In this document: positions 48,804-60,568 of the stretch, one piece after another
Layout: every line of letters begins with the position of its first letter
Numbering within the stretch: position 1 is the stretch's first letter
Assembly (NCBI RefSeq): GCF_001715975.1
Contig: NZ_MARB01000011.1
Span: 99,041 to 163,040 of the forward strand
DNA length: 64,000 nucleotides
Direction of reading: 5' to 3'
Origin: Candidatus Thiodiazotropha endolucinida
GTDB taxonomy: Bacteria > Pseudomonadota > Gammaproteobacteria > Chromatiales > Chromatiaceae
Position numbers and translations under genes: made by a program
Notes under the pieces: model-generated
What the model saw: the letters and a program-made list of their open reading frames with translations, nothing else
Told to the model about the DNA's origin: nothing
Databases searched by the model: none

Positions 48804-49250
48804 TTGCCGGACACTTGCCAAAATCTCAACATTCAGGTGTAGAAATCCGGACTAGATCTAACACCATTTTTAAAATTTAATCATAAGTCATCTGGCAATG
48901 GAGAGAGAGGAAGACCTACTTCTCCAAAACAGACCTACATCAAAGCCTGTTGTACCGATAGAAATCGGCCAAGAAGTCGAAGTTCGAGACACCCTTGCTG
49001 ACAGGCTACTATCACCTTCAAGCGGAAGTTCACTGCCAAGGGGCCAACTTTGGAGTGACTAGCAAAACTGACGCCCTGTATCTATCGGCAAGTAAGGTCG
49101 GGTAGATTGCGCGACTACACTGCGTGACAGGTGGCCTCTTCTTTGTGCCAGTCACTGTAATTGGTGGCATGAGTTACATGGGAAATTCCGTAAAAATTGC
49201 TTAAGAGAGCTATATTCATATTGAATAGTGAAAAGCAGAAGGAGCGGATC
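48804..49250. other. Intergenic region before the zinc island
   Basis: About 450 bases with no supported gene. The last part holds the promoter and AGAAGGAG ribosome binding site of the histidine-rich gene. I could not find a second Zur box here. Confidence 0.4.
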
Positions 49251-49607
49251 ATGACTATCGAAAAATGTGAAACACATGAAAACCACGATCATGAGCACGG
49301 TGAACACTGCGGTCACACCAAGATTAAACATGGCGACCACACCGACTACCTGCATGATGGTCACATGCACCACAAACATGGCGACCACTATGATGAACAT
49401 CGCCTTGAAGTCAATGAAAAAAATCCAGACCAATGCCAGCCTGTCAAACATGAAGACACTCACGTCCACGGACCTGGCTGTGGACATGAGGCTGTTCCAC
49501 ACAGCGACCACACCGACTACATCGTCAATGGTCGGCTCCATCACCCCCACGGTGACCACTGCGACGACCACGGCCCGGTCGAGACGGAGGAGAATCCGAA
49601 GAAATAA
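49251..49607 (+). CDS. Histidine-rich metal-binding protein with internal duplication
   Basis: A 118-residue cytosolic protein, about a quarter His with many Asp. AGAAGGAG sets the ATG at 49251. It is made of two copies of the same unit: 'CGHTKIKHGDHTDYLHDG' then 'HMHHKHGDHYDEH', and 'CGHEAVPHSDHTDYIVNG' then 'RLHHPHGDHCDDH'. Each has one or two Cys and about ten His, a good zinc or nickel sink. Proteins of this pattern are widespread in Proteobacteria, usually near zinc transport or Zur-controlled genes, and have no established role; zinc storage or buffering is likely. It converges on the small gene at 49620 just before the Zur-headed operon. There is no signal peptide. Confidence 0.8.
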   Translation: MTIEKCETHENHDHEHGEHCGHTKIKHGDHTDYLHDGHMHHKHGDHYDEHRLEVNEKNPDQCQPVKHEDTHVHGPGCGHEAVPHSDHTDYIVNGRLHHPHGDHCDDHGPVETEENPKK

Positions 49608-49619
49608 GTAATGACGGAA

Positions 49620-49817
49620 TCATTGCACCGGGATATCTCGGTGACCTGCGGCCTTAAGCCTTTTTTCGAGGGTCTCAATCTTCCGCTCGTTTTCGGCCTT
49701 CATCTGCTCGAACACGCGACTAACTTTGGTCATTTCCACGCTGTCGGCGGAGGTGGCCGTCGCTGGGATAGCCAGTTTTGCCACAATTGCGGCGCTAAGT
49801 AGTTTTCTACTCAACAT
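49620..49817 (-). CDS. Small exported coiled-coil protein, possibly a truncated porin/receptor
   Basis: From the ATG at 49817 (GGAG ten bases upstream) the frame gives 65 residues: a signal peptide 'MLSRKLLSAAIVAKLAIPA' cleaved near 'TATSA', then a charged coiled coil 'VFEQMKAENERKIETLEKRL'. N-terminal coiled coils of this kind begin many outer-membrane porins and receptors, so this may be the stump of a zinc-regulated outer-membrane protein that ended early. A longer frame begins inside the Zur box and is unlikely. It is divergent from the zinc operon and shares the Zur box at 49900, so it is probably zinc-controlled whatever its function. Confidence 0.5.
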   Translation of the reverse strand: MLSRKLLSAAIVAKLAIPATATSADSVEMTKVSRVFEQMKAENERKIETLEKRLKAAGHRDIPVQ

Positions 49818-49899
49818 CAGTGATGTACTCCAGCACTTGGGGTGAGATTTCACCTCAGAAAATGCTTGGTGCATGATGGAGGCTTGTGTTCTTAATGTT

Positions 49900-49916
49900 A
49901 TGTTATAATATAACAT
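49900..49916. promoter_or_regulatory. Zur box between divergent zinc-island promoters
   Basis: ATGTTATAATATAACAT is palindromic in 16 of 17 positions (the centre base excepted) and fits the gammaproteobacterial Zur consensus, TGTTATA..TATAACA. It lies 35 bases before the first gene of the zinc operon and 83 before the small divergent gene, and a zur gene is carried by that operon, giving autoregulation. Zur with zinc bound should repress both directions. Confidence 0.88.
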
Positions 49917-49950
49917 TCATGTTTATTAGGAGCGAACGAGCATCTGTAAT

Positions 49951-50616
49951 ATGTACCAGATCCTGACTCCCCAAGAATCCGCGACTTCTACACCCGGTGC
50001 GACATCCCATATAATCGGTGATAGCCCCGATGTACTGCACCAAATCCTCGACCCCGGCGTGAACCTCAGCCTGTGGCAACGCCTACCCCAAACGGCGATA
50101 ACTCGAGAGCTATCAATCCTCCAAGCATCACACCTGCCGGACGTACGTTGTCCGGCGTCGCTGGATTCGTTCGACGATGACGTCAGCGCGCTGTTGCGGC
50201 AGCAGGGCCTTGATCCATTGGTTTTCACTAACTGGCGCAAGGACTTACGCCGGCTGGCGGATCTCTATTTCAGCCTCAGCGATGATCGAGATGTGACATT
50301 ACGCCTGGTGACTACTGATGATGATGAATGTCGTCGATTCCATGTTGATCGCACAAACTTGCGGTTGCTCTGTACCTATCGAGGACCTGGAACAGAATGG
50401 TTGACCAACGATCAAGTTGATCGATTGGCGCAAGCTACGGGAGCGCCTAATGAGGATATCATTCGCTTCGGTATCCCTTCTCAGTTCGAGCCGTTTTGGG
50501 TGGGGATTCTGAAGGGCGACGCTTTCCCCGACAACGCCAGCCACGGTCTGGTGCACCGTTCACCGCCGATCAAGGGTTCAGGCCAGACCCGCGTGCTGTT
50601 TTGTCTGGATTGCTGA
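49951..50616 (+). CDS. DUF1826 family protein (first copy)
   Basis: A 221-residue cytosolic protein of the DUF1826 family, which has no proven function and recurs in Zur-controlled, CobW-linked operons. Conserved segments are 'FHVDRTNLRLLCTYRGPGTEW' (about 130-150) and 'HGLVHRSPP' (198-206). H131, D133, H202 and R214 form an HxD...H...R pattern like the facial triad and oxoacid-binding Arg of Fe(II)/2-oxoglutarate oxygenases; this reading is inference. The next gene is a paralogue with the same pattern. It heads the operon, 35 bases from the Zur box. AGGAG lies about 17 bases before the ATG, rather far, so a slightly different start is possible. Confidence 0.82.
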   Translation: MYQILTPQESATSTPGATSHIIGDSPDVLHQILDPGVNLSLWQRLPQTAITRELSILQASHLPDVRCPASLDSFDDDVSALLRQQGLDPLVFTNWRKDLRRLADLYFSLSDDRDVTLRLVTTDDDECRRFHVDRTNLRLLCTYRGPGTEWLTNDQVDRLAQATGAPNEDIIRFGIPSQFEPFWVGILKGDAFPDNASHGLVHRSPPIKGSGQTRVLFCLDC

Positions 50617-50619
50617 GCC

Positions 50620-51255
50620 ATGGCCGAAGCTAAGCTCCTGTCCGACCTAACCCCTGAGGCGCCGACCTGGCGGCGTGTCCCCGAACTCGCCGATCTGGCC
50701 GAGATCTTCGATCCCAGTCTCCAGGTCTGTAGCTGGCAACGGGAGATCGATCCCGCCATCGGGACCTACCTGTCAGGACTTCATCAAGCTGGGGAATTAC
50801 AGGTCATCGAAACCTTGTCGCCATCCGCTCGACCGAGGCTCGAGTCTCTGCCAGCCGGATATGGAAGGACGTCGCTCATGGATGATTTGGCATTGCTGAG
50901 CGAGGTTGTCTGTGAACTTCTGGGCTCTTCTGAAGCCGGTCTGCGTCTCGCGCGCGTGGGATACGCCATGTGCCCTGGCTGGCACCTCGACCGGGTCGGT
51001 ATCCGACTCGTCTGTACCTACCAGGGACCCGGCACAGAATGGCTGGATGACCAGACTGTAGAACGTCAAGACCTTCATGCTAGCCGGACGAAAGAAGACG
51101 CCGTCATTCAGGCCCTCCCGGGGGAGCTGGTACTGCTCAAGGGTGCCCACTGGCAGGGCAATGACGGCTTCGGCGCCGTGCACCGCTCACCGGAGCTCGC
51201 CCCCGGCGCCGGCTTGCGAACAGTGGTTACGTTAGATCCCCTGTGGCGCGAGTGA
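50620..51255 (+). CDS. DUF1826 family protein (second copy)
   Basis: A 211-residue paralogue of the preceding protein, three bases after its stop and surely cotranslated. The two share 'HxDR.x.RLxCTYxGPGTEWL' and 'VHRSP' but little else in the N-terminal halves, so the duplication is old. The putative triad is H122, D124, H188 with R200; the spacing from the second His to the Arg is twelve residues in both copies. Residues 'PELADLAEIFDPSLQVCSWQ' at the start resemble 'VLHQILDPGVNLSLWQR' in the first copy. No signal peptide. A role in zinc-starvation metabolism is inferred from the operon only. Confidence 0.82.
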   Translation: MAEAKLLSDLTPEAPTWRRVPELADLAEIFDPSLQVCSWQREIDPAIGTYLSGLHQAGELQVIETLSPSARPRLESLPAGYGRTSLMDDLALLSEVVCELLGSSEAGLRLARVGYAMCPGWHLDRVGIRLVCTYQGPGTEWLDDQTVERQDLHASRTKEDAVIQALPGELVLLKGAHWQGNDGFGAVHRSPELAPGAGLRTVVTLDPLWRE

Positions 51256-51301
51256 GTCAGCCGTATCGCAGCTAGCATCGATTGCGTAAAGGAGAGTTGA
51301 A

Positions 51302-52528
51302 ATGCCTTCTGCACCTGACATTGACCGTAAACTACCGGTCACCGTGCTTTCCGGCTTCCTGGGTGCCGGAAAGACCACGCTGCTCAACCATATCCTTAAC
51401 AACCGCGAAGGACGGCGCGTCGCCGTCATCGTCAACGATATGTCTGAGGTCAACATCGATGCCACCCTCGTGGACAAAGAGGTCCAGCTAAATCGCGCCG
51501 AGGAAAAGCTGGTCGAGATGAGCAACGGTTGTATCTGCTGCACCCTGCGCGAGGATCTGCTGGTCGAAGTCAGCCGCCTGGCAAAGGCGGGCCGATTCGA
51601 TTACCTGGTGATCGAATCCACCGGCATCTCCGAGCCGTTGCCAGTGGCAGAGACCTTCACCTTCCGTGATGAGGAGGAGACCAGCCTGTCAGACCTGGCC
51701 AATCTCGATACCATGGTAACGGTTGTGGATGCGGTGAATTTTAGCGTCGACCTCGACGAGGCAGACAGTCTGCAAGCCCGCGGTGAGTCACTCGGTGAGG
51801 ATGATGAGCGTACAGTGTCCGACCTTTTGATCGATCAGGTCGAGTTCGCGGACGTTATTGTCATCAATAAGATCGACCTGATCACGGCTGCCGAACGTGA
51901 GCGGCTGGAGAATGCATTGCGCCAGCTCAGCCGGCATGCCGAGATCCTCAATGCCAATTTTGGCAAAGTACCGCTGGATCGTCTCATCGGTACCGGACGC
52001 TTCGACTTCGCGCGTGCAGTGCAGTCACCAGGGTGGCTTGCTGAGATCCGTGGCGAGCATACGCCGGAGACGGAAGAGTACGGTATCGGCAGCTTCGTCT
52101 ATCGAGCGCGCCGCCCATTTCATCCGGCCCGTTTTGCCGAAGCACTGAAGAGCGATTGGCCGGGAAATGTCCTGCGCTCGAAGGGTTTTTTCTGGCTTGC
52201 CTCGAGGCCCGATGCGGCGGGCAAATGGTCACAGGCCGGAGGCATTGTGCGCCATGGCCCTGCAGGCATGTGGTGGGCTGCCGTACCGTGTGAGCATTGG
52301 CCAGAGGACCCAGAATACCGCGCCCGCATCGAAGCGCTACTTGACGGAAAGTACGGTGACCGGCGCCAGGAGATCGTCTTCATCGGCCAACACCTCGAAC
52401 CGATGGAAACCCGCATGATCCTCGATCGCTGTCTTCTCACGTCTGCCGAGATGGATGCCGGCCCCGAGGGCTGGAAGACACTCGACGATCCCTTCCCAAC
52501 GTGGTTTGCCGAGCCAGACGAGGGCTGA
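51302..52528 (+). CDS. zigA: CobW/COG0523 GTPase, ZigA-type zinc metallochaperone
   Basis: A 408-residue G3E-family GTPase. Residues 18-28 are the P-loop '[11 protein letters not shown]', the metal-binding CxCC is C77-C79-C80 in '[14 protein letters not shown]', and 'NKIDL' is the G4 motif. The C-terminal CobW_C domain covers about 270-400. The N-terminal '[13 protein letters not shown]' is typical of the subgroup that includes ZigA of Acinetobacter, induced in zinc starvation and thought to deliver zinc to client enzymes. AAAGGAGAG precedes the ATG. Its place in a Zur-headed operon beside DUF1826 genes fits this role; B12 metabolism is unlikely as no cob genes are near. The gene symbol is by analogy. 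Confidence 0.88.
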
Positions 52529-52532
52529 CCCT

Positions 52533-52769
52533 ATGGTCGAAGACACTGCACGATACGCCGACGAAATGTTCCCGAGCGACTACGCGAGCTGGCGCTATTG
52601 CATTGAGGACAAATGCGGTCTGGCCTTGACGCCCGAGTTTGTGCAGGCACGTATTGCCGTTCTCGGTGATCCCCACCACGAGGAATCAAGACGTTTCGCG
52701 AGCGTGTATGGCGAGCCATGGCGTGAGCAGGTGCTGGTGTGGTTCCAGCGCGCCGCCGCCGAGGCATGA
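52533..52769 (+). CDS. 78-residue conserved protein of the zinc operon
   Basis: The ATG lies four bases after the zigA stop. The product (MVEDTARYADEMFPSDYA, then 'SWRYCIEDKCGLALTPEFV' and 'RFASVYGEPWREQVLVWFQ') is acidic at the start and looks helical, with two Cys in C-I-E-D-K-C. I recall proteins of this look next to CobW genes, but know no function or named family. Two cysteines and an acidic patch allow metal binding. An 87-base gap separates it from the DksA-like gene. Real by position and coding character; role unknown. Confidence 0.65.
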   Translation: MVEDTARYADEMFPSDYASWRYCIEDKCGLALTPEFVQARIAVLGDPHHEESRRFASVYGEPWREQVLVWFQRAAAEA

Positions 52770-52856
52770 TGACGGGCTTAACCATGCGTCGCCGCGATCC
52801 GGCTGCAGTGGTCCCGGCCGCTATGTCCTCAGTATCCAACACAACGACACAGTGAT

Positions 52857-53321
52857 ATGGCCATGAAAGACAACGAATTAGAGCGACACGTGCAGCCACT
52901 TGGCTCCTCCGACAGTGAACCACCCATCGACGACGACTACATGGAGCCGCGCCAGTTGGCCTATTTCAGACAGAAGCTCCTGGACTGGCGATCAGCGTTA
53001 CTCGACGAGGTTGACACGACCCTCGCGGAGCTGCGTCACGATTGCCACCATGAGGTCGGCGATGAAGCGGACCGAGCCACCCGCGAAGCTGCCCAGACGT
53101 TGGAGTTGCGCACGCGAGACCGCTACCGCAAGCTCCTGGGCAAAATCAACGCTGCCCTCGACCGTATCGACGACGGTACCTACGGTTGGTGCGAAGACAC
53201 CGGCGAACCAATCGGCTTGGCTCGGCTTGAGGCACGCCCCGTCACGACGCTCTGTGTGGAAGCTCAGGAGCGACGCGAGCTGCGCGAGCGGCTGACGGGC
53301 AAGGATCACGACAGAAACTGA
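52857..53321 (+). CDS. dksA2: DksA2-type transcription factor lacking two zinc-finger cysteines
   Basis: A 154-residue DksA/TraR-family protein that would bind RNA polymerase's secondary channel and act with ppGpp. The coiled-coil domain has 'YMEPRQLAYFRQKLLDWR' and 'HEVGDEADRATREAA', the acidic tip. Where canonical DksA has four zinc ligands, this protein has C112, T115, C133 and A136, the C-x2-T-x17-C-x2-A pattern of Pseudomonas aeruginosa DksA2, which works without zinc and is made when zinc is scarce. A Zur-controlled operon is exactly where such a stand-in belongs. An ATG at 52863 is an alternative start; neither has a strong ribosome binding site. Confidence 0.92.
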   Translation: MAMKDNELERHVQPLGSSDSEPPIDDDYMEPRQLAYFRQKLLDWRSALLDEVDTTLAELRHDCHHEVGDEADRATREAAQTLELRTRDRYRKLLGKINAALDRIDDGTYGWCEDTGEPIGLARLEARPVTTLCVEAQERRELRERLTGKDHDRN

Positions 53322-53337
53322 GCTAGGTCTCTTAACG

Positions 53338-53976
53338 ATGGGTCTACAGCATTACTACAGATGCGGCATGGCAGGATTAATGCTGGGGATGTTACTCGGC
53401 AGCTCCTCGCTACAGGCCCATCCTCACCATTGGATCGATGTGTTCGCCGAGTGGCAGTTCGATACAAAGGGATTGATCAGCGGCGTGAAACTGCGCTGGT
53501 TATTCGATGATTACTACTCGGTTCTGCTGGTTGACGACGCCGTAACTACAGGAGAGGAATTACAGGCGATCCTGAATAAGATACTAAGCAATACTGCTAA
53601 GCATCATTACTTTCTTCAGATCGAGCACGAAGGCGGAGAAGCCAGTTTAGGCACCCACGAACAAGCCACCATCGGTGTGCAGAACCATCGAATCGAGATC
53701 GAGTTCCTGCTGCCAATAACAGTGCCGCTCGACCCGAGGCACAGCGATATCGTCTATCAGATCGCGGAGCCGACCTACTATTTCGAGATGCTGCACGCCG
53801 AGGAGAGCCCAGTCATCGTACTCAAAGACGCGCCCCCTTCGTGTCGATACCGCCTTGAACCGCCAAAACCGGATGCGGCCCTGGTCGCCTACGCGGCCTC
53901 GCTCGGTGTAAATGAGAGCGGCGGGGATGGTCTCGGCATTCAGTTTGCTGAAACGGTGACCATTCGATGCGAGTAA
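53338..53976 (+). CDS. zevA: ZevA-like periplasmic protein (DUF1007)
   Basis: A 212-residue exported protein of the DUF1007 family. Signal peptide 'GMAGLMLGMLLGSSSLQA' ends at 'HPHHWIDV', so the mature N-terminus carries three His (HPHHW), the family's conserved and likely metal-binding start. 'GVKLRWLFDDYYS' is also family-typical. In Haemophilus influenzae ZevA (DUF1007) works with the NicO-type protein ZevB in zinc uptake. Here the next gene is a ZevB homologue that overlaps it by ten bases, which supports the assignment. A nickel or cobalt role is the alternative. Confidence 0.85.
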   Translation: MGLQHYYRCGMAGLMLGMLLGSSSLQAHPHHWIDVFAEWQFDTKGLISGVKLRWLFDDYYSVLLVDDAVTTGEELQAILNKILSNTAKHHYFLQIEHEGGEASLGTHEQATIGVQNHRIEIEFLLPITVPLDPRHSDIVYQIAEPTYYFEMLHAEESPVIVLKDAPPSCRYRLEPPKPDAALVAYAASLGVNESGGDGLGIQFAETVTIRCE

Positions 53977-54992
53977 GCTGTTTTATGTTCATTGTTCTCG
54001 CGTGGATGGGAGCCATTGCTTTCTCGGCCGAATCGCATGCGACAACTTTATTACCAGGTGAGCGGGCCACCACCGAGCAGTCCAGGGATGGTAACCACGC
54101 CAGCACAGAACGGGCTGTTGGCATATGGGAACTGGCCGCGGCCTGGGTCTGGGCAAAACAGCGCGAGTTTCACCGTGCGCTTACGCGTGAGTTAAGAGAG
54201 CTGCGCGGCAAGGAAGGCGTCGGCTGGGCTTTGGTGCTGATGAGCTTTCTTTACGGTGTCTTGCATGCCGCAGGGCCTGGGCATGGCAAGGCGGTGTTGA
54301 CGGCCTACCTGTTGACCCACCAAAGCCGCCTGAATCGCGGTATCGCCATGGGCACCGCTGCTGCGCTCCTGCAGGGCGTGACGGCGCTGGTGCTGGTGTA
54401 CGGTCTGGTCGGTTTGGCCGGTTGGCTACCGCGGGAGACAGAAACGGCATCACTGTGGGCCGCGCGAGTCAGTTTCATTCTGCTTGCCACGGTCGGACTC
54501 TACTTACTGGTAGGCGCTGCACGGACTTTGTTTGGCACTGTGCGCCGATTGCGGTACGAAGCCGGCCATGTCCACCATGACCATGACGGTCATGTTCACG
54601 GTGAAAGTTGCGGCTGCCGGCACCTGCCCACTGCTGTCGAGATCGATACCGTCGGCAGTCGGCATGCGACGGCTGGTGTGGTTTTGGCCATCGGGCTGCG
54701 CCCGTGCAGTGGTGCAGTGTTGGTGCTGATTCTTGCTACCGTGATGGATCTAATGTGGCATGGCGCGTTTGCCGTGATAGGCATGTCCGTAGGGACCGCG
54801 ATCACCATTGTCAGTTTGGCCATTCTTGCGACCAAAGCGCGAGACTGGGCGAGTGCGGTGGTTGCTCACCGGTCACCGTTGTGGTCGTTGGCGGCCGGTG
54901 GTGTGGGTGCGCTTGGCGGTGCCCTGCTGTTACTTTTGGCACTGTGGCTGCTGAACACCTCGTTTGTGATGAAACCGGCAATGGGTTTGTAA
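53967..54992 (+). CDS. zevB: ZevB-like NicO/RcnA-family membrane transporter
   Basis: A 341-residue membrane protein of the NicO family with a leading signal-type helix and about six more helices. Conserved: 'YGVLHAAGPGHGKAVLTAYL' with the H-x(5)-G-H-G-K metal motif, and 'LAIGLRPCSGAVLVLILA'. Between them is a cytosolic or periplasmic loop with 'GHVHHDHDGHVHGESCGC', a His/Cys cluster for metal capture. NicO proteins move Ni2+ or Co2+; ZevB of Haemophilus, paired with ZevA, serves zinc. The Zur-headed operon and ten-base overlap with zevA favour zinc here. Export rather than import cannot be excluded from sequence alone. Confidence 0.85.
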   Translation: MRVSCFMFIVLAWMGAIAFSAESHATTLLPGERATTEQSRDGNHASTERAVGIWELAAAWVWAKQREFHRALTRELRELRGKEGVGWALVLMSFLYGVLHAAGPGHGKAVLTAYLLTHQSRLNRGIAMGTAAALLQGVTALVLVYGLVGLAGWLPRETETASLWAARVSFILLATVGLYLLVGAARTLFGTVRRLRYEAGHVHHDHDGHVHGESCGCRHLPTAVEIDTVGSRHATAGVVLAIGLRPCSGAVLVLILATVMDLMWHGAFAVIGMSVGTAITIVSLAILATKARDWASAVVAHRSPLWSLAAGGVGALGGALLLLLALWLLNTSFVMKPAMGL

Positions 54993-55005
54993 GAGGACTA
55001 TCCTG

Positions 55006-55113
55006 ATGAAGCTACCATTCTCCCCCTTTCGAGCCGGTATCGGCGCGCGCCTCACGCTTGCCGGCGTCGCCACCGGTCTGTTGTGGTTTGCGGTCGCCTG
55101 GGCTCTGCTATGA
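55006..55113 (+). CDS. 35-residue membrane peptide coupled to znuC
   Basis: A short frame behind AAGAGGA (the ATG at 55006) gives MKLPFSPFRAGIGARLTLAG and one hydrophobic helix 'LAGVATGLLWFAVAWALL'. Its stop TGA overlaps the znuC start in ATGA, so translation of the two is coupled. The basic N-terminus and single helix fit an inner-membrane microprotein with the N-terminus in the cytosol. Position between zevB and znuCBA suggests it may assist a zinc transporter. Not a known family to me. Confidence 0.6.
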   Translation: MKLPFSPFRAGIGARLTLAGVATGLLWFAVAWALL

Positions 55114-55859
55114 GTGCCCCAATGGACGGTACGATTTTGCATTTCGATAACCTGACCCTCGGATACGACCGCCATCCCGCAGTCCATCATCTCGATTACG
55201 TCATTCGCGCCGGTGCCCTAGTCGCCGTAGTAGGACCGAACGGTGCCGGAAAGTCGACTCTTCTCAAAGGGGTCGTCGGCAGCCTCGCGCCTCTCGAAGG
55301 TAAGATCAGGTTGGCAGGGATTAAAGCCTCGGAAATCGCGTACCTACCTCAACAGGCCGATATCGATCGAAGCTTTCCGATCTCGGTTTTCGACATGGCA
55401 GCCATGGGATTGTGGCAAAAGTCGGGGGCTTTTCGTCGATTCGGGCGGGACGGCGACAGGAGGGTTGGCGAAGCCTTGGATATCGTGGGGCTGGCTGGAT
55501 TCGAAAAGCGCCCTATCGGCACCCTCTCCGGTGGGCAAATGCAACGTTCCCTGTTCGCCCGCTTACTGCTTCAGGACGCGCGGCTGATTCTTCTGGATGA
55601 GCCGTTCACGGCCATCGATTCGGCGACGGTACGTGATCTTAAGAGACTCATTCGTCGCTGGCACGGGGAGCGGCGGACGGTGATCGCCGTCTTGCACGAC
55701 CTGGATCAGGTTCGGGCAGATTTCCCGGAGACCCTTCTGCTGGCCCGCGAGCAGGTCGCCGCCGGTTCGACGGAGACCGTCCTTACTCAAGCGAATCTCG
55801 ATCAAGCGCGCCGACTTACCGAGGCCTTCGACGAAGAGGCGGCCGTATGTGGGCGATGA
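55110..55859 (+). CDS. znuC: Zinc ABC transporter ATP-binding protein
   Basis: A 249-residue ABC ATPase of the zinc/manganese importer group. Start at 55110, inside the ATGA overlap with the microprotein gene. Walker A 'GPNGAGKSTLLKGVVG', Q-loop 'YLPQQADIDRSFP', signature 'LSGGQMQRSLFARLL', Walker B 'LILLDEPFTAID' and switch His 'VLHDLDQV' are intact. The 'YLPQQADID.SFPI' segment is characteristic of metal-type (cluster 9/A-I) importers. With the permease and binding protein that follow it forms ZnuABC. Manganese is the usual alternative, but the Zur context favours zinc. Confidence 0.92.
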   Translation: MSAPMDGTILHFDNLTLGYDRHPAVHHLDYVIRAGALVAVVGPNGAGKSTLLKGVVGSLAPLEGKIRLAGIKASEIAYLPQQADIDRSFPISVFDMAAMGLWQKSGAFRRFGRDGDRRVGEALDIVGLAGFEKRPIGTLSGGQMQRSLFARLLLQDARLILLDEPFTAIDSATVRDLKRLIRRWHGERRTVIAVLHDLDQVRADFPETLLLAREQVAAGSTETVLTQANLDQARRLTEAFDEEAAVCGR

Positions 55860-55896
55860 ACGCCAAGGCTATTTCCCTTCCGGTGGAGGGCGCGTG

Positions 55897-56763
55897 ATGT
55901 ACGATGCCATCTTCGCCCCCTTTGTCGAATTCAGCTTCATGCGCCGGGCTCTGGTCGGGTGCCTCGCCCTGTCACTGGGGGCGACACCCATCGGCGTGTT
56001 CCTGACCCTTCGCCGGATGAGCCTGACCGGGGATGCCATGGCCCATGCAATTCTTCCCGGTGCGGCGCTCGGATACCTCGTGGCAGGCCTGTCACTCGGC
56101 GCTATGACGCTTGGCGGGGTGATCGCAGGGGTGGCTGTGGCCATACTCTCCGGACTGGTGGCCCGAACCACCGTGGCACGGGAGGATTCCAGCCTCGCTG
56201 CCTTCTATCTGATTTCCCTCGCTGTCGGCGTCGTGATCGTCTCGATGCGCGGCAGCAATGTCGACCTGTTGCACATCCTGTTCGGCACGGTGCTCGCCCT
56301 GAACGATGAGGCCATATTTCTTATCTCCGGAATCGCCACGATCACCCTGTTTGGGCTTGCCGTGATTTACCGCCCCTTGGTGATCGAATGTTTCGACCCG
56401 GGCTTTCTCCGCTCGGTCAGTCCCCTCAGTCCGGTGGCCCATTATGGCTTTCTCGTCCTGGCGGTCCTCAATCTGGTGGGCGGCTTTCATGCCCTGGGGA
56501 CCCTGATGGCGGTCGGAATCATGATCCTTCCCGCCGCAGCCGCCCGGTTTTGGACGCGTGACATCACCCACCTACTAATCATCGGTGTGCTTGGAGCCTT
56601 CCTGAGTGGGTTTGTCGGCCTGTTGCTGTCCTATCACGCCAGCTTGCCTTCCGGCCCGGCCATCATCCTGACGGCGGGGGCATTCTATCTGTTGTCGTTG
56701 GCCTTTGGTCCTGACGGCGTCATCATGACGCGCCTCAGGCCACGCCGTCATCTAGAAGCATAA
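55897..56763 (+). CDS. znuB: Zinc ABC transporter permease
   Basis: A 288-residue ABC-3 family permease with about eight helices. I start at the ATG at 55897 behind GGTGGAGGG; a GTG at 55849 overlaps the end of znuC and has no site. Family marks: 'FMRRALVGCLALSLGATPIGVFLTLRRMSLTGDAMAHAILPG' (given here by its ends; residues about 10-50), the coupling region 'GDAMAHAILPGAALGYL', and 'FHALGTLMAVGIMILPAAAARF'. The gene lies between znuC and znuA. Confidence 0.92.
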   Translation: MYDAIFAPFVEFSFMRRALVGCLALSLGATPIGVFLTLRRMSLTGDAMAHAILPGAALGYLVAGLSLGAMTLGGVIAGVAVAILSGLVARTTVAREDSSLAAFYLISLAVGVVIVSMRGSNVDLLHILFGTVLALNDEAIFLISGIATITLFGLAVIYRPLVIECFDPGFLRSVSPLSPVAHYGFLVLAVLNLVGGFHALGTLMAVGIMILPAAAARFWTRDITHLLIIGVLGAFLSGFVGLLLSYHASLPSGPAIILTAGAFYLLSLAFGPDGVIMTRLRPRRHLEA

Positions 56764-56790
56764 TCCCTATACCAAACTAGGAGTATTTCT

Positions 56791-57753
56791 GTGATATCCA
56801 GACGATCTGTCCTCTCTTCCATCTTCGCCTTCGGTTTGGTCTCGTTATTCGGGCCAGGGACCGCCCGGGCCGACTTTCTCATCAACGTTGTTGCCTCGTT
56901 CAGCATTTTGGGTGATATGGTTCAACAGGTGGGTGGTGACCGGGTTCATGTCACTACCTTGGTCGGCCCGGGCGGCGACGCGCACGTCTATCAGCCGACC
57001 CCGGCGGATGCTCGGTCAGTCGCCGAAACCAAGCTGTTAATCGTCAATGGATTGGGCTTCGAGGGCTGGATGGATCGCCTGACGGAGGCGTCCGGCTACA
57101 AGGGGCGGGTGGTGACGGCGACCGCCGGTATCGTGCCTCTCAAGATGGAGGAAGCCGAAAAGCAACACGAAGCAGAGCACGAGAAAGACACTGAAGAATA
57201 CGGGCAAGCAGATCACGACTACGGCGGAATCGATCCCCATGCCTGGCAGAGTCTGGCCAATGCCCAGATCTATGTCCGCAATATCGCAGAGGGACTGGCT
57301 GCGGTTGACCCCGCAGGGGCTGAAACCTATCGCAGCAACGCGGCGCGCTACCTGAAGGAGATCGACGTGGTCGAGGCTCAGGTTCGCGAGGCGGTCGCTT
57401 CACTCCCGGTCGAACGGCGCAAGGTGGTCACATCCCACGACGCCTTCGGCTACTTCTCGGCAGCCTATGGTATCGAGTTCCATGCACCGGTTGGTGTCAG
57501 CACCGAAGTGGAGGCATCCGCGGGTGACGTCGCTAGGCTGATTCGTCAGATCAAGAAGGAAAAGATCTTGGCCGTCTTCGTCGAGAACATCTCCGATCGC
57601 CGCCTACTCGACCAGATCATCCGGGAAACCGGGGCGCGGATTGGCGTCACCCTCTATTCCGACGCCCTGTCGAAGGCCGACGGACCAGCCGGGTCTTACC
57701 TTGGCATGATGCGACACAATATCCGAGTGCTGGTCGCCGCCGTGCGTAAATAG
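56791..57753 (+). CDS. znuA: Zinc ABC transporter substrate-binding protein
   Basis: A 320-residue periplasmic receptor (TroA/ZnuA fold). GTG start at 56791 behind AGGAG. The N-terminus is MISRRSVLSSIFAFGLVSLF, a signal sequence with a paired Arg that could be Tat-type. Metal ligands are H65 ('GDAHVYQP'), H150 ('IDPHAWQS'), H216 ('SHDAFGYF') and D291 ('LYSDAL'), the three-His-one-acid set typical of ZnuA/TroA. A charged mobile loop (119-144) has His residues but is mainly Glu, Asp and Lys, less His-rich than in Escherichia coli ZnuA, so it could serve a related metal such as manganese; the Zur setting argues for zinc. Confidence 0.92.
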   Translation: MISRRSVLSSIFAFGLVSLFGPGTARADFLINVVASFSILGDMVQQVGGDRVHVTTLVGPGGDAHVYQPTPADARSVAETKLLIVNGLGFEGWMDRLTEASGYKGRVVTATAGIVPLKMEEAEKQHEAEHEKDTEEYGQADHDYGGIDPHAWQSLANAQIYVRNIAEGLAAVDPAGAETYRSNAARYLKEIDVVEAQVREAVASLPVERRKVVTSHDAFGYFSAAYGIEFHAPVGVSTEVEASAGDVARLIRQIKKEKILAVFVENISDRRLLDQIIRETGARIGVTLYSDALSKADGPAGSYLGMMRHNIRVLVAAVRK

Positions 57754-57786
57754 CCGCCACGCGAGGTACGTGGCAAGGAGAAAACC

Positions 57787-58242
57787 GTGAATAATGAAAC
57801 GCTTTCCCGTGTACTGGAGCAAGCTGACGCGCTGTGCCATGAGCGCGGCGTGCGGCTGACCGAACAACGAAAGAGCGTCCTTCAATTGCTGTGCGTATCG
57901 GACAAACCACTCAGTGCTTACGAACTATTGGAGCAGATGCGTGGCGTAGTCAAGAATCCTGCACCATCGACGGTCTACCGAGCACTAGATTTCCTGCTCG
58001 AGCAAGGTCTGGCGCACAAGCTCGAGAGCCTGCACGCCTATGTGGGCTGTGCACATCCGGACCATCCACACGCCAGCCAATTTCTGATTTGTGATGACTG
58101 CGGCGAGGTGGCTGAGGTCTTAGACCCCAGTGTGGCCAAGAGCCTGAAAGCGGCTGGCAAGGCGGTTGGGTTCCGTACCAAGCGGCCGGTCGTCGAACTT
58201 ATGGGGACCTGTGCACAGTGCATCAAGAAGCGAGACGAATAG
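57787..58242 (+). CDS. zur: Zinc uptake regulator Zur (Fur family)
   Basis: A 151-residue Fur-family repressor. GTG start at 57787 behind AAGGAG. Winged-helix domain: 'ERGVRLTEQRKSVLQLL' and 'PAPSTVYRALDFLLEQGLAHK'. The dimer domain has 'CAHPDHPHASQFLICDDCG' and 'CAQCIKK', the two CxxC pairs of the structural zinc site and the His cluster for the sensing site. The spacing and 'GVRLTEQR' start are those of Zur rather than Fur or PerR. It belongs to the operon headed by the Zur box at 49900, so it represses its own synthesis when zinc is plentiful. Confidence 0.9.
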   Translation: MNNETLSRVLEQADALCHERGVRLTEQRKSVLQLLCVSDKPLSAYELLEQMRGVVKNPAPSTVYRALDFLLEQGLAHKLESLHAYVGCAHPDHPHASQFLICDDCGEVAEVLDPSVAKSLKAAGKAVGFRTKRPVVELMGTCAQCIKKRDE

Positions 58243-58301
58243 ACCTGCACCCTATCCACTTCAAACCCTGTTTACCCAAAATGATAAGGAGATAATCCGT
58301 T

Positions 58302-58940
58302 ATGTATCTGAAACACATCGCTTTGACTGCCTCTCTGATGACCCCTTTTGTGCTCGTCGCGCTCGGGGCATCCGCGGATGAGAAACACGAACACGACCAT
58401 GATCAAGAACATCGCCAACACGATGCTCACGTACACGGCATTACTGCGCTGAACCTAGCACTCGAAGGCGAAGAGGTTCATATTGAACTCGACAGTCCGG
58501 CCGCAAACATCGTCGGCTTCGAACATGCACCTTCGTCGGAGGCAGACCATGCCGCGTTGGACGAGGCTGTGGCCGCACTGAAGAATGGTGATCAACTTTT
58601 CCGTTTTAACAACGAGGCTGGCTGCCGCATGGAAGAAGCGATAGTCACTTCCGCATTGCTTGAGGAAGAGCATGACGACTACCCTGACAAGCACTCGGAC
58701 GATCACGACCATGAAGGGAAAGGCGAACATGGACATGAGGAGCACGAGGGCGAGGAAACTCACTCGGATATCGAAGTCACCTATCACTTCGAGTGTGAAC
58801 TGCCCGCTAAACTGACGCAGCTGACCGTCGAACTGTTCGAGGTCTTCCCCGCCACGGAAGTGCTTAACGTTCAGTACGTCATCGAGAGCAAGCAGGGTGC
58901 GAGAGAGCTTACAGCGAAGGACCATGTCGTCAAGTTCTGA
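58302..58940 (+). CDS. zrgA: ZrgA-like zinc uptake protein (DUF2796)
   Basis: A 212-residue exported protein of the DUF2796 (ZrgA) family. AAGGAG precedes the ATG. Signal peptide 'HIALTASLMTPFVLVALGASA', then a His/Asp-rich opening 'EHDHDQEHRQHDAHVHG', the domain body 'LNLALEGEEVHIELDSPAANIVGFEHAP', and a second His/Asp/Glu cluster (about 127-155). In Vibrio cholerae ZrgA forms part of a zinc-binding import system under Zur. It closes the operon 59 bases after zur. Its many His residues would hold periplasmic zinc for ZnuA or ZevAB. I see no clear hairpin terminator after the stop. Confidence 0.88.
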   Translation: MYLKHIALTASLMTPFVLVALGASADEKHEHDHDQEHRQHDAHVHGITALNLALEGEEVHIELDSPAANIVGFEHAPSSEADHAALDEAVAALKNGDQLFRFNNEAGCRMEEAIVTSALLEEEHDDYPDKHSDDHDHEGKGEHGHEEHEGEETHSDIEVTYHFECELPAKLTQLTVELFEVFPATEVLNVQYVIESKQGARELTAKDHVVKF

Positions 58941-59218
58941 GGTGCTGGCTTGTTTAGGTTCGGGGTTTAAGCCAGTCACCCTGTGCCGCACCGCTTCTTC
59001 GTCGCTCTGCGATACCGCTCGCCTGAGCTTAAGGTTGAAAACCTGCTCCTAGGTCATCAGCAGACGTTATCGATGTCAACTCATGAGGTCTGAAAAGGTC
59101 GCGTAGCGGGCATTTAAGCAGAAATCTCTTTATGTCCGTTCTTTGCTGGGCGCGACACTGTCAGATGATATTGATACTGGGTTTTCTATCTGTCAGATCA
59201 AGTTTAGATTTCTACAAT

Positions 59219-60568
59219 TTAGGTAACAGACTTTTCATTTGTCCCGCTTGTATCTCCAGTAGCGCCGGGTATCGGTGTTTCATTCCAAACGTCCTCAACC
59301 AGCCCGGTGATATCAACAACGTCTCCAATGGCAATCAGGTTATTGAAATCGGTTTTCAGGCGTTCACAGCGGCCAGGGGAAAGTTGTACCAGTCGATCGA
59401 TCGCCTGTTCAATCTCTGCTTTCGGTGGTACATCAGGATGGTTGACGACTATCTTGATACAGCGAAAATCATGGCCCATAGCATGATGTACGAAATCAGT
59501 TCGTTGTGTTTCATCGCTAATTTCGAATTCGGCCAGGGATTTGATTTCAAATTCAGGTATGCTCCCGCGACGCTCTTTAGAGAGGTAGAGGATGATCTCA
59601 GCCGAACCCTGTTCGATCACTTCCTGCATAATCCGCTGTAAGCGGCCATTCATGGTCAAGACACTGAAATCGAATTCGCCGTCGGCAACCTCGAAGTAAT
59701 TAACCAACGGTGAGGGGGAGGCAGTGATGCCGAGTCGGAAAGTCCAGTCGTTCTGGGATCTGCAATAGATGAAGACCGGCAGGGTCGAGCTGCTTTCGAT
59801 AAAGATCGATGAGTAGAGGCGTGATGTGGCGGCACGCAGCGTATGCGAAGTCTCGAGTAGCAGGCCAGATTGGCGTTTTGCCAGGAATCCGGAAAATGCA
59901 TTGGAAAACTGACGGCCTTTGTTGGCATTACTGATTTTGAGACGTAACAGCTGCTCCCCATTCGCCGGTCCACCTACGATCTCTGCCGGTACGTTGCGAA
60001 AGGTACCTTTGATACGTGCCAGGCTTGAGCTTCTCGCCTCCAGTTTTGGAAAGGTTATCGTTGCCTTGCGCTCACTGACTAAAGCGAGACTTGAATCTGC
60101 AATCTCGACGGACAACCCGTGGGCAGATACATCCCGGGTCTTGCCCAGATAGAGCCGTCCGGCGACACCGACCTCAACCTGCATCTGCCCCAGAAAGCGG
60201 TCTTCGCTTCGGTTTTCCTGGATGTAGTGAATGGGTACCATTTGAGGAGGTTCAAGGGATTGCTGGTCATCACCATAGATGATCGGTTCCTCATAGAGAT
60301 TGCGGTCAAAGCTGTCGTCATGAGGCCAATTACGAACCTGGTCAGTCACGTCGATCATGGCACCTACGATCGATAGAGCTATGGCATCCATGAGTAGTTT
60401 GCGTACAAACTTGTCACTCTGATCGGGAAGCGGATCCAGTGCATCCTCAATTCGCATCTCCACGGGCCGGCGGGCCACCCGCGCGACGACCTTAAATATA
60501 CGGAATCCCGGCTGATCCGAATATCGCGTCAGAAGTCGACACCATTGTTTGTAATTTTTTGCACTCAA
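59219..60568 (-). CDS. PilZ-domain protein (downstream partner)
   Basis: A 449-residue protein with a PilZ domain at about 115-215: 'NRSEDRFLGQMQVEV' contains R-x3-R and 'TRDVSAHGLSVEI' contains D-x-S-x2-G, the two halves of the c-di-GMP site, both intact. The C-terminal 220 residues ('SSTLPVFIYCRSQNDW' and 'HDFRCIKIVV') mirror the C-terminal part of the upstream protein. The N-terminal helix region 'KFVRKLLMDAIALSIVGAMID' is not strongly hydrophobic. Its start overlaps the upstream gene by 77 bases; the two may be halves of one ancestral protein separated by a frameshift, or a coupled pair. No signal peptide; a cytosolic c-di-GMP receptor. The regulated process is unknown. Confidence 0.82.
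   Translation of the reverse strand: MSAKNYKQWCRLLTRYSDQPGFRIFKVVARVARRPVEMRIEDALDPLPDQSDKFVRKLLMDAIALSIVGAMIDVTDQVRNWPHDDSFDRNLYEEPIIYGDDQQSLEPPQMVPIHYIQENRSEDRFLGQMQVEVGVAGRLYLGKTRDVSAHGLSVEIADSSLALVSERKATITFPKLEARSSSLARIKGTFRNVPAEIVGGPANGEQLLRLKISNANKGRQFSNAFSGFLAKRQSGLLLETSHTLRAATSRLYSSIFIESSSTLPVFIYCRSQNDWTFRLGITASPSPLVNYFEVADGEFDFSVLTMNGRLQRIMQEVIEQGSAEIILYLSKERRGSIPEFEIKSLAEFEISDETQRTDFVHHAMGHDFRCIKIVVNHPDVPPKAEIEQAIDRLVQLSPGRCERLKTDFNNLIAIGDVVDITGLVEDVWNETPIPGATGDTSGTNEKSVT

Follow-up and report, generated by a model that had tools for sequence, protein, structure and literature searches.

A candidate Zur-repressed zinc-starvation operon of thirteen genes in a Candidatus Thiodiazotropha genome, with a predicted oxygenase family and a small membrane protein beside an Azt-type importer

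Described zinc-starvation loci and the thirteen-gene unit

A run of thirteen open reading frames (ORFs) headed by a Zur-type palindrome lies in a 64,000-nucleotide stretch of the genome of Candidatus Thiodiazotropha endolucinida (hereafter the window; contig C11, 99041-163040), and its parts resemble zinc-responsive loci described in other bacteria. In Pseudomonas aeruginosa, genes for DksA2, ZigA and a DUF1826 protein (PA5536-PA5535-PA5534) adjoin one another, as the same three kinds of gene do in the window. PA5534 and ZigA are up on zinc depletion and DksA2 only weakly so (PMC11761036), N-acetylcysteine raises PA5536-PA5534 together with the znu genes (PMC9431628), and this stretch of the P. 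aeruginosa genome holds two Zur-regulated operons. Unlike in P. aeruginosa, the DUF1826 gene of the window is doubled and comes first. Moreover, azt, zev, zur and zrgA genes follow downstream on the same strand, whereas the znu genes and PA4063-4066 of P. aeruginosa lie elsewhere, judging by their gene numbers.

The AztABCD system of Paracoccus denitrificans has AztA-, AztB- and AztC-type proteins, as does the window, and its locus carries a Zur motif and is induced on zinc depletion (PMC5387054). Unlike that system the window is without aztD, and it has a small ORF upstream of aztA that was not found in the two Paracoccus loci fetched (L184, L185). In Skermanella and Azospirillum, DUF1826 stands directly before small ORF-aztABC, with a GTPase gene added in Skermanella, but no dksA2, zevAB or zrgA was seen in the fetched stretches, unlike in the window. 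On a plasmid of Paracoccaceae bacterium La 6 (L245), the order small ORF-aztABC-GTPase-DUF1007-NicO is found on one strand, the last two genes being ZevAB-type by our own reading; no DUF1826, dksA, zur or zrgA gene is annotated there within 12.7 kb, again unlike the window. The same plasmid has hutU-hutH-hutI near the small ORF-azt run, which is reminiscent of a ZigA-Hut link reported for Acinetobacter. Lastly, ZrgA belongs to the family of the Vibrio cholerae zrgABCDE operon, in which zrgA is required for zinc import (PMC9820375); the zrgA of the window lacks an adjoining ATPase and permease, unlike that of V. cholerae, while a second copy elsewhere in the genome (G000:C37) has both.

The features of the unit are as follows (family, score and, where given, curated cut-off in brackets):

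49900..49916, no strand: Zur-type operator, perfect 17-base palindrome ATGTTATAATATAACAT; inverted repeat containing TATAAT
49951..50616, + strand: DUF1826 protein 1, predicted Fe(II)/2-oxoglutarate-type oxygenase (PF08856, 195.9 bits)
50620..51255, + strand: DUF1826 protein 2, with H-x-D...H...R residues as in protein 1 (PF08856, 172.3 bits)
51302..52528, + strand: ZigA, zinc metallochaperone GTPase (NF038288, 672.7 bits, cut-off 600)
52533..52769, + strand: 78-residue five-helix protein of no known family, near zigA in relatives
52857..53321, + strand: DksA2-type DksA, finger cysteines C-T-C-A (TIGR02420, 142.6 bits, cut-off 115.5)
53338..53976, + strand: ZevA-type DUF1007 protein (PF06226, 144.2 bits)
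53967..54992, + strand: ZevB-type NicO permease with His-rich loop (PF03824, 91.7 bits)
55006..55113, + strand: 35-residue single-helix membrane protein, conserved family upstream of aztA-like genes
55110..55859, + strand: AztA-type ABC (ATP-binding cassette) ATPase (NF040873, 221.4 bits, cut-off 220), previously called ZnuC
55897..56763, + strand: AztB-type permease (best curated model NF040871, 260.8 bits, below cut-off 280), previously called ZnuB
56791..57753, + strand: AztC-type substrate-binding protein (best model NF040870, 312.3 bits, below cut-off 350), previously called ZnuA
57787..58242, + strand: Zur, Fur family (best model NF008646, 135.1 bits, below cut-off 167)
58302..58940, + strand: ZrgA, His-rich (PF10986, 181.2 bits)

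A preliminary description of this DNA had given thirteen same-strand genes with gaps of at most 87 bases and some overlaps, and these ORF calls hold: all thirteen, from 49951 to 58940, are on the + strand. The intergenic distances are, in order, 3, 46, 4, 87, 16, -10, 13, -4, 37, 27, 33 and 59 bases, so that the widest gaps stand ahead of dksA2 (87), zrgA (59) and zigA (46), and two pairs overlap, namely zevA/zevB by 10 bases and the 35-residue ORF/aztA by 4 (as ATGA). The nearest DUF1826 loci come from lucinid-clam symbiont or Candidatus Thiodiazotropha records (L070, L072, L073, L078-L080), and the genome (4.49 Mb in 55 contigs) groups with Candidatus Thiodiazotropha, symbionts of lucinid clams. 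DUF1826 is present in 8 of the 22 genomes of the genus that were sampled, this one included.

The operator and the extent of the unit

The palindrome is a perfect inverted repeat about one central base, and it lies 34 bases ahead of the first ATG; it had earlier been called near-perfect. Its core, GTTATANTATAAC, is the sole match in the window at one mismatch or fewer, compared with 0.02 expected from shuffles. In the whole genome the exact core occurs at two places, the window and a site 55 bases before the znuA ATG of a znuA-zur-znuC-znuB operon. (The names znu, porin-like and MacB-like given to proteins outside the window come from reading their translations; the znu operon was also found by tblastn with Azt and Zur queries.) Allowing one mismatch raises the total to five places, the two exact ones and three others, one of which heads the second zrgA, followed by its ATPase and permease genes. 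Among 80 named DUF1826 loci, a box at this threshold is found within 350 bases upstream of the first DUF1826 gene in 25 (27,458 bases searched); outside those stretches, the whole 1,330,312 bases of these loci hold only 7 other boxes, five of them also before zinc genes (L073, L077 twice, L098 and L104). Members of the genus bear ATGTTATGATATAACAT or related forms at the operator position, with L072 and L074 keeping no intact one. Because the core is rare in the genome, heads zinc genes, is enriched before DUF1826 genes and is kept in the genus, the palindrome is, on these sequence grounds, a conserved Zur-type operator, and the unit has a Zur box ahead of it as a member of a Zur regulon should. 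A chance palindrome was considered and rejected on the genome rarity, the shuffle expectation and the enrichment upstream of DUF1826 genes.

Several observations weigh against this assignment or against the operon reading below. The other two one-mismatch places (C2:172207 and C3:101185) have, by our reading, no zinc gene among the ORFs of at least 90 residues within the surrounding 3 kb, and 55 of the 80 DUF1826 loci have no box at one mismatch or fewer in the stretch searched. At up to two mismatches the pattern occurs at 53 places versus 184 for a reversed control; since it is rarer than the control, only the exact and one-mismatch places carry weight. Moreover, a promoter scan gave no consensus promoter at the box, the best promoter-like site (10 of 12) being inside the first gene, at 49987-50015.

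Two neighbouring features may be mentioned here. Divergent from znuA-zur-znuC-znuB (L005, G000:C16, 6584-9529, - strand) are genes whose translations read as a porin-like outer-membrane protein, a second ZnuA-like binding protein and an ABC-3-like permease, which perhaps share the znu Zur box. Just upstream of the box of the window, on the same strand (49251-49607), a His-rich ORF of 118 residues contains two related blocks (HGDHTDY...HGDH); it is kept at the same place in L070 (93%) and L071 (69%) and has no match in Pfam or NCBIfam.

Taken as a whole, the thirteen genes probably constitute one Zur-repressed zinc-starvation operon. Gene content, operator, spacing, protein families and conservation can be read from the sequence itself, and from there we infer a single transcript and the binding of Zur. 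When zinc is plentiful, zinc-loaded Zur would occupy the palindrome that overlaps TATAAT and block transcription, and when zinc falls, Zur would leave it and the thirteen products would be made together. AztC would capture periplasmic zinc and pass it to an AztB/AztA importer, which may include the 35-residue single-helix protein as an accessory subunit and would work without an AztD chaperone. ZevAB would provide a second metal route, and ZrgA would act as a periplasmic zinc binder with no pump of its own at the locus. Inside the cell, ZigA would direct scarce zinc, DksA2 would replace the zinc-finger DksA, and the two DUF1826 proteins, if Fe(II)/2-oxoglutarate oxygenases, would perform an oxidation tied to ZigA. 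Zur, encoded in the operon, would close the feedback loop.

The box and the protein families thus support the earlier proposal of a zinc-starvation unit with two import routes, a ZigA GTPase, a cysteine-depleted DksA, ZrgA and Zur. It had also been proposed to be a complete programme. This goes too far, because znuA-zur-znuC-znuB and the second zrgA-ATPase-permease set are further zinc units of the genome with Zur boxes of their own, and the ZrgA of the window is without partners. The surprise of the gene set alone is moderate, since Zur regulons are already known to combine several of these parts.

The extent of the unit was weighed by comparison with relatives, namely 30 loci, drawn from 29 of the 39 other genomes of the order that carry DUF1826, and the 80 named loci; the two sets overlap, some contigs are short and several end inside the region. 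The preliminary description knew of no report of all these genes in one unit, and the search for their order in related genomes gave subsets only: the full thirteen-part set is in none of the 30 loci nor of the 80. The fullest relative is Thiorhodococcus drewsii (L093), with the DUF1826 pair, zigA, the 78-residue gene, dksA, a distant binding protein (31%), zur and zrgA. L070 has the DUF1826 pair, zevAB, the small ORF, aztABC, a 33-residue zur remnant and zrgA, while L073 has the pair, a 41-residue zigA remnant, the 78-residue gene, dksA, a 36-residue zevA remnant, a different ABC importer, zur and zrgA. DNA alignment gives three clean junctions, at which remnants of genes are left, with window positions 57886-58285 missing in L070, 53477-53909 in L072 and approximately 51370-52451 in L073. 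Instead of the zigA-dksA stretch, L070 and L072 have about 70 bases, and in L073 positions 53446-57731 are swapped for other sequence. These patterns can be read to mean that the genus first had the long form, from which sister lineages then lost parts. Since L070, L072 and L073 are metagenome assemblies, single junctions could be assembly faults.

Parts of the set do occur as separate units in relatives, which weighs against a single operon, as does the second box that L073 has inside the region, before its other ABC importer; internal control is therefore possible. The region could accordingly be made of two or more side-by-side units, DUF1826-zigA-78-residue gene-dksA2 and zevAB-azt-zur-zrgA, rather than one thirteen-gene transcript. 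The three widest gaps would suit such a division, the DUF1826 pair occurs without the other parts in L075, L078, L079 and L080, a zigA-78-residue gene-dksA-DUF1826 block occurs in L119, L133 and L146, and the second box of L073 lies between the two blocks. However, the window has no second box at one mismatch or fewer, and from 49100 to 59300 neither promoter-like sites (5 versus 3.8 expected from shuffles) nor terminator-like sites (8 versus 8.8) are in excess. In L070 and L072, moreover, the middle genes are absent and the zev-azt block follows the DUF1826 pair immediately, on the same strand. We therefore regard separate units as somewhat unlikely, although deserving of serious weight, and prefer the single operon.

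The Azt-type importer and its 35-residue companion

The importer proteins score 221.4 bits with the AztA model (cut-off 220), 260.8 with AztB (280) and 312.3 with AztC (350). The curated Znu models give the same proteins 90.5 (ZnuC), 64.6 (ZnuB) and 77.3 bits (ZnuA), against cut-offs of 306, 284 and 268. The nearest solved structures to the binding protein are PDB 5w56, 5kzj and 6xpn, which we take to be P. denitrificans AztC. On family scores, the importer is thus of Azt type and not ZnuABC. The names ZnuC, ZnuB and ZnuA of the preliminary description do not stand, as the best curated models are AztA, AztB and AztC. That AztB and AztC fall below their curated NCBIfam cut-offs counts against the assignment, even though these are the best models. 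An ordinary ZnuABC could be argued from Pfam, which names the binding protein ZnuA (PF01297, 300.2 bits), and from the folds that cluster A-I importers share. Nevertheless, the Azt models outscore the Znu models widely for all three proteins, the Azt-type rows of an AztB tree form one group separate from eight other importers (98/97), and the genome has its znuA-zur-znuC-znuB operon elsewhere, so that the ZnuABC naming is rejected as hardly credible. No aztD match was found in the window (tblastn, two queries, E <=1e-5). The start of AztC (SRRSVLSS, within 56791-56850) is twin-arginine-like, and similar starts are present in L070, L072 (PRRSILIS), L201 and L180 (TRRTLL); AztC may be exported folded by the twin-arginine (Tat) route.

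A short ORF with one hydrophobic stretch also precedes aztA in Azospirillum, Thiohalocapsa, Arenicellales, Inhella and others, and is present in alpha-, beta- and gammaproteobacteria. When 37,187 stop-to-stop ORFs from 131 loci were searched with a model built from ten seeds, 35 matched at E <=0.001; 34 of these are directly before aztA and the other (L103) is before a partial aztA. An alignment of 44 copies has, apart from the hydrophobic stretch, one Arg in 44/44 and one Trp in 43/44. A 29-row model matched 73 of 398 genomes of the phylum, once each, and all but one of these matches (G333) lie 26-92 bases upstream of an AztA-like match on the same strand. Fifteen of the 73 genomes contributed rows to this model and the others include near kin; among the 58 that gave no row, 57 have the match upstream of an AztA-like gene. 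Several copies (L214-L216, L221-L223 and L227) carry a long His-rich head before the hydrophobic stretch.

The AztA-like neighbours of the small ORF are mostly below the curated cut-off of 220 bits (62/72, with 10/72 above). Nineteen AztA matches exceed it, ten of them accompanied by the small ORF and nine belonging to AztD-branch loci (L190-L198). Among the 150 AztA-like matches listed, 78 are without the small ORF. It is lacking in all eight loci with an aztD match, and likewise in eleven loci with other importers, whereas the small ORF and a nearby AztD are both missing from six loci (L190, L192 and L194-L197); the search for AztD covered the fetched stretches and used tblastn and two queries. 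A tree of 64 AztB-like rows, labelled by hand, groups the eight AztD loci and the six lacking both in a single branch (100/100), nested among the rows that carry the small ORF. Of the 42 rows labelled as having the small ORF, six (L199, L215, L216, L217, L223 and L227) reach E 0.001 or worse with the ten-seed model; five of those six genomes are matched by the 29-row model at E 7.5e-8 or better, L199 being itself a training row, and in L217 (G247), which that model does not match, the small ORF was called by eye. The tree omits L094 and L103, both of which carry the small ORF. On the simplest account, Azt systems would have had the small protein from early on and lost it once.

No Pfam or NCBIfam family exceeds its cut-off for any of the four members tested, and three members are annotated as hypothetical proteins. 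A literature search at the level of terms, titles and abstract starts found no description of a small membrane protein with Azt, and going by that search alone the family is undescribed. Small membrane proteins encoded with metal importers are otherwise familiar as subunits of the CbiN/NikN type, which are like the 35-residue protein in size and in the company of a metal importer, but belong to a different importer class.

The ORF might instead be a mere leader or coupling ORF for aztA, its peptide functionless. It overlaps aztA by ATGA in the window, and codon changes among three Thiodiazotropha-type copies are not mainly synonymous (synonymous to nonsynonymous 6:7 for window-L070, 5:12 for window-L072 and 3:5 for L070-L072), both of which would suit such a role. 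The invariant Arg, the nearly invariant Trp and the hydrophobic stretch argue otherwise, as do the spread over three proteobacterial classes, the loss on one branch of the AztB tree and the His-rich heads. In addition, the ORF is not bound to the overlap, because it lies between 26 and 92 bases from the AztA match, depending on the genome. A functionless leader is thus improbable, and a candidate Azt subunit is the preferred interpretation.

DUF1826, its companions and the meaning of the unit

Fe(II)/2-oxoglutarate oxygenases bind iron through an H-x-D...H triad and 2-oxoglutarate through a following Arg. The candidate counterparts in DUF1826, namely H131, D133, H202 and R214, do not change across all 35 sequences. 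An AlphaFold2 model (mean predicted local distance difference test, pLDDT, 93.3) has the double-stranded beta-helix fold, with these residues on its strands in the expected order; the match to known triads is by order and spacing. Foldseek with this model gave 182 PDB chains at E <=0.001 (best E 7.2e-7). The titles of the 50 listed place every one of them in the Fe(II)/2-oxoglutarate oxygenase superfamily, one as a putative oxygenase only, and none of the 50 is a desuccinylase. Sequence search of the PDB gave only two matches, at E 0.34. The template modelling (TM) scores by query length, 0.37-0.51 among the 50 listed, are moderate and count against the assignment, and because of them the result is a fold assignment and not orthology. 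DUF1826 is thus a predicted, probable Fe(II)/2-oxoglutarate-type oxygenase, and its gene company suggests ZigA as the connection of its oxidation. An in-frame TAG is present in the first DUF1826 gene of L053 (G089).

DUF1826 might alternatively be a zinc-binding protein, or a zinc enzyme akin to succinylglutamate desuccinylase. PMC5786701 states that the domain is found in predicted succinylglutamate desuccinylases, perhaps zinc dependent; furthermore, Cys127 and Cys141 are invariant in the 35 sequences and could bind metal, and the TM-scores leave some distance to known oxygenases. With a high-confidence model, listed matches that are all of the oxygenase superfamily and the four invariant residues on the other side, this alternative is distinctly unlikely, and the oxygenase assignment is retained.

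The pairing of DUF1826 with zigA is already in print. DUF1826 appears in a figure legend on Zur-regulated COG0523 clusters (PMC2770081), work on Francisella Zur picked up a DUF1826 gene by RNA-Seq (PMC5786701), and PA5534 is the DUF1826 protein beside zigA and dksA2 (PMC9431628). A full-length zigA is near DUF1826 in 46 of the 80 named loci and a partial one in 6 more (a length limit was applied). No literature report was found of an oxidation step in the zinc-starvation response.

As for the remaining products, ZigA exceeds its curated cut-off. The DksA of the window retains the first and third finger cysteines, the other two being Thr and Ala, as in PDB 4ijj, which we take to be P. aeruginosa DksA2. 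A paralogue with the C4 finger is encoded elsewhere in the genome (G000:C1:180104); DksA family membership, loss of the C4 finger and presence of a C4 paralogue together point to a protein of DksA2 type. The 78-residue protein has no match in Pfam or NCBIfam, and its model of five helices (pLDDT 86.4) has a single PDB match at E <=10 (E 9.3), for which reasons it is given no role. From its place after zigA it was considered as the counterpart of P. aeruginosa PA5534, an idea dropped because a table in PMC9431628 lists PA5534 as a DUF1826 protein.

The DUF1007 (PF06226) and NicO (PF03824) families are matched by an adjacent pair that is presumably ZevA and ZevB, for zinc uptake, and would thus be a second metal route. 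The genome encodes two Zur-like proteins that are 43% identical; the nearest solved chains to that of the window, 7dh7 and 4mtd, are titled 'Zinc uptake regulation protein'. ZrgA is nearest to PA4063 (7ahw) and to 8ezw in the PDB, and no ATPase or permease partner is encoded beside its gene. Two scores count against these names: Zur remains below the cut-off of NF008646, yet this is its best family by far, and ZrgA reaches only 157.9 bits with NF047873 (cut-off 185), although it matches PF10986.

DUF1826 and the 35-residue peptide, to which the preliminary description gave no role, are the most informative parts of the unit. On balance we lean, if only slightly, towards the combined view that the 35-residue ORF encodes an ancestral, integral Azt subunit across Proteobacteria, lost once with the AztD branch, and that DUF1826 is a Zur-controlled oxygenase partnered with ZigA, whose oxidation of a protein or small molecule would be new to zinc responses. 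If DUF1826 is an iron-dependent oxygenase, the zinc-starvation response includes an oxidation step, and the desuccinylase label is misleading. If the small protein is a true Azt subunit, the studied AztABCD of Paracoccus represents the branch that lost it, and research on the other branch would overlook one component. The operon itself shows the packing, shuffling and erosion of a zinc-scarcity kit in clam symbionts.

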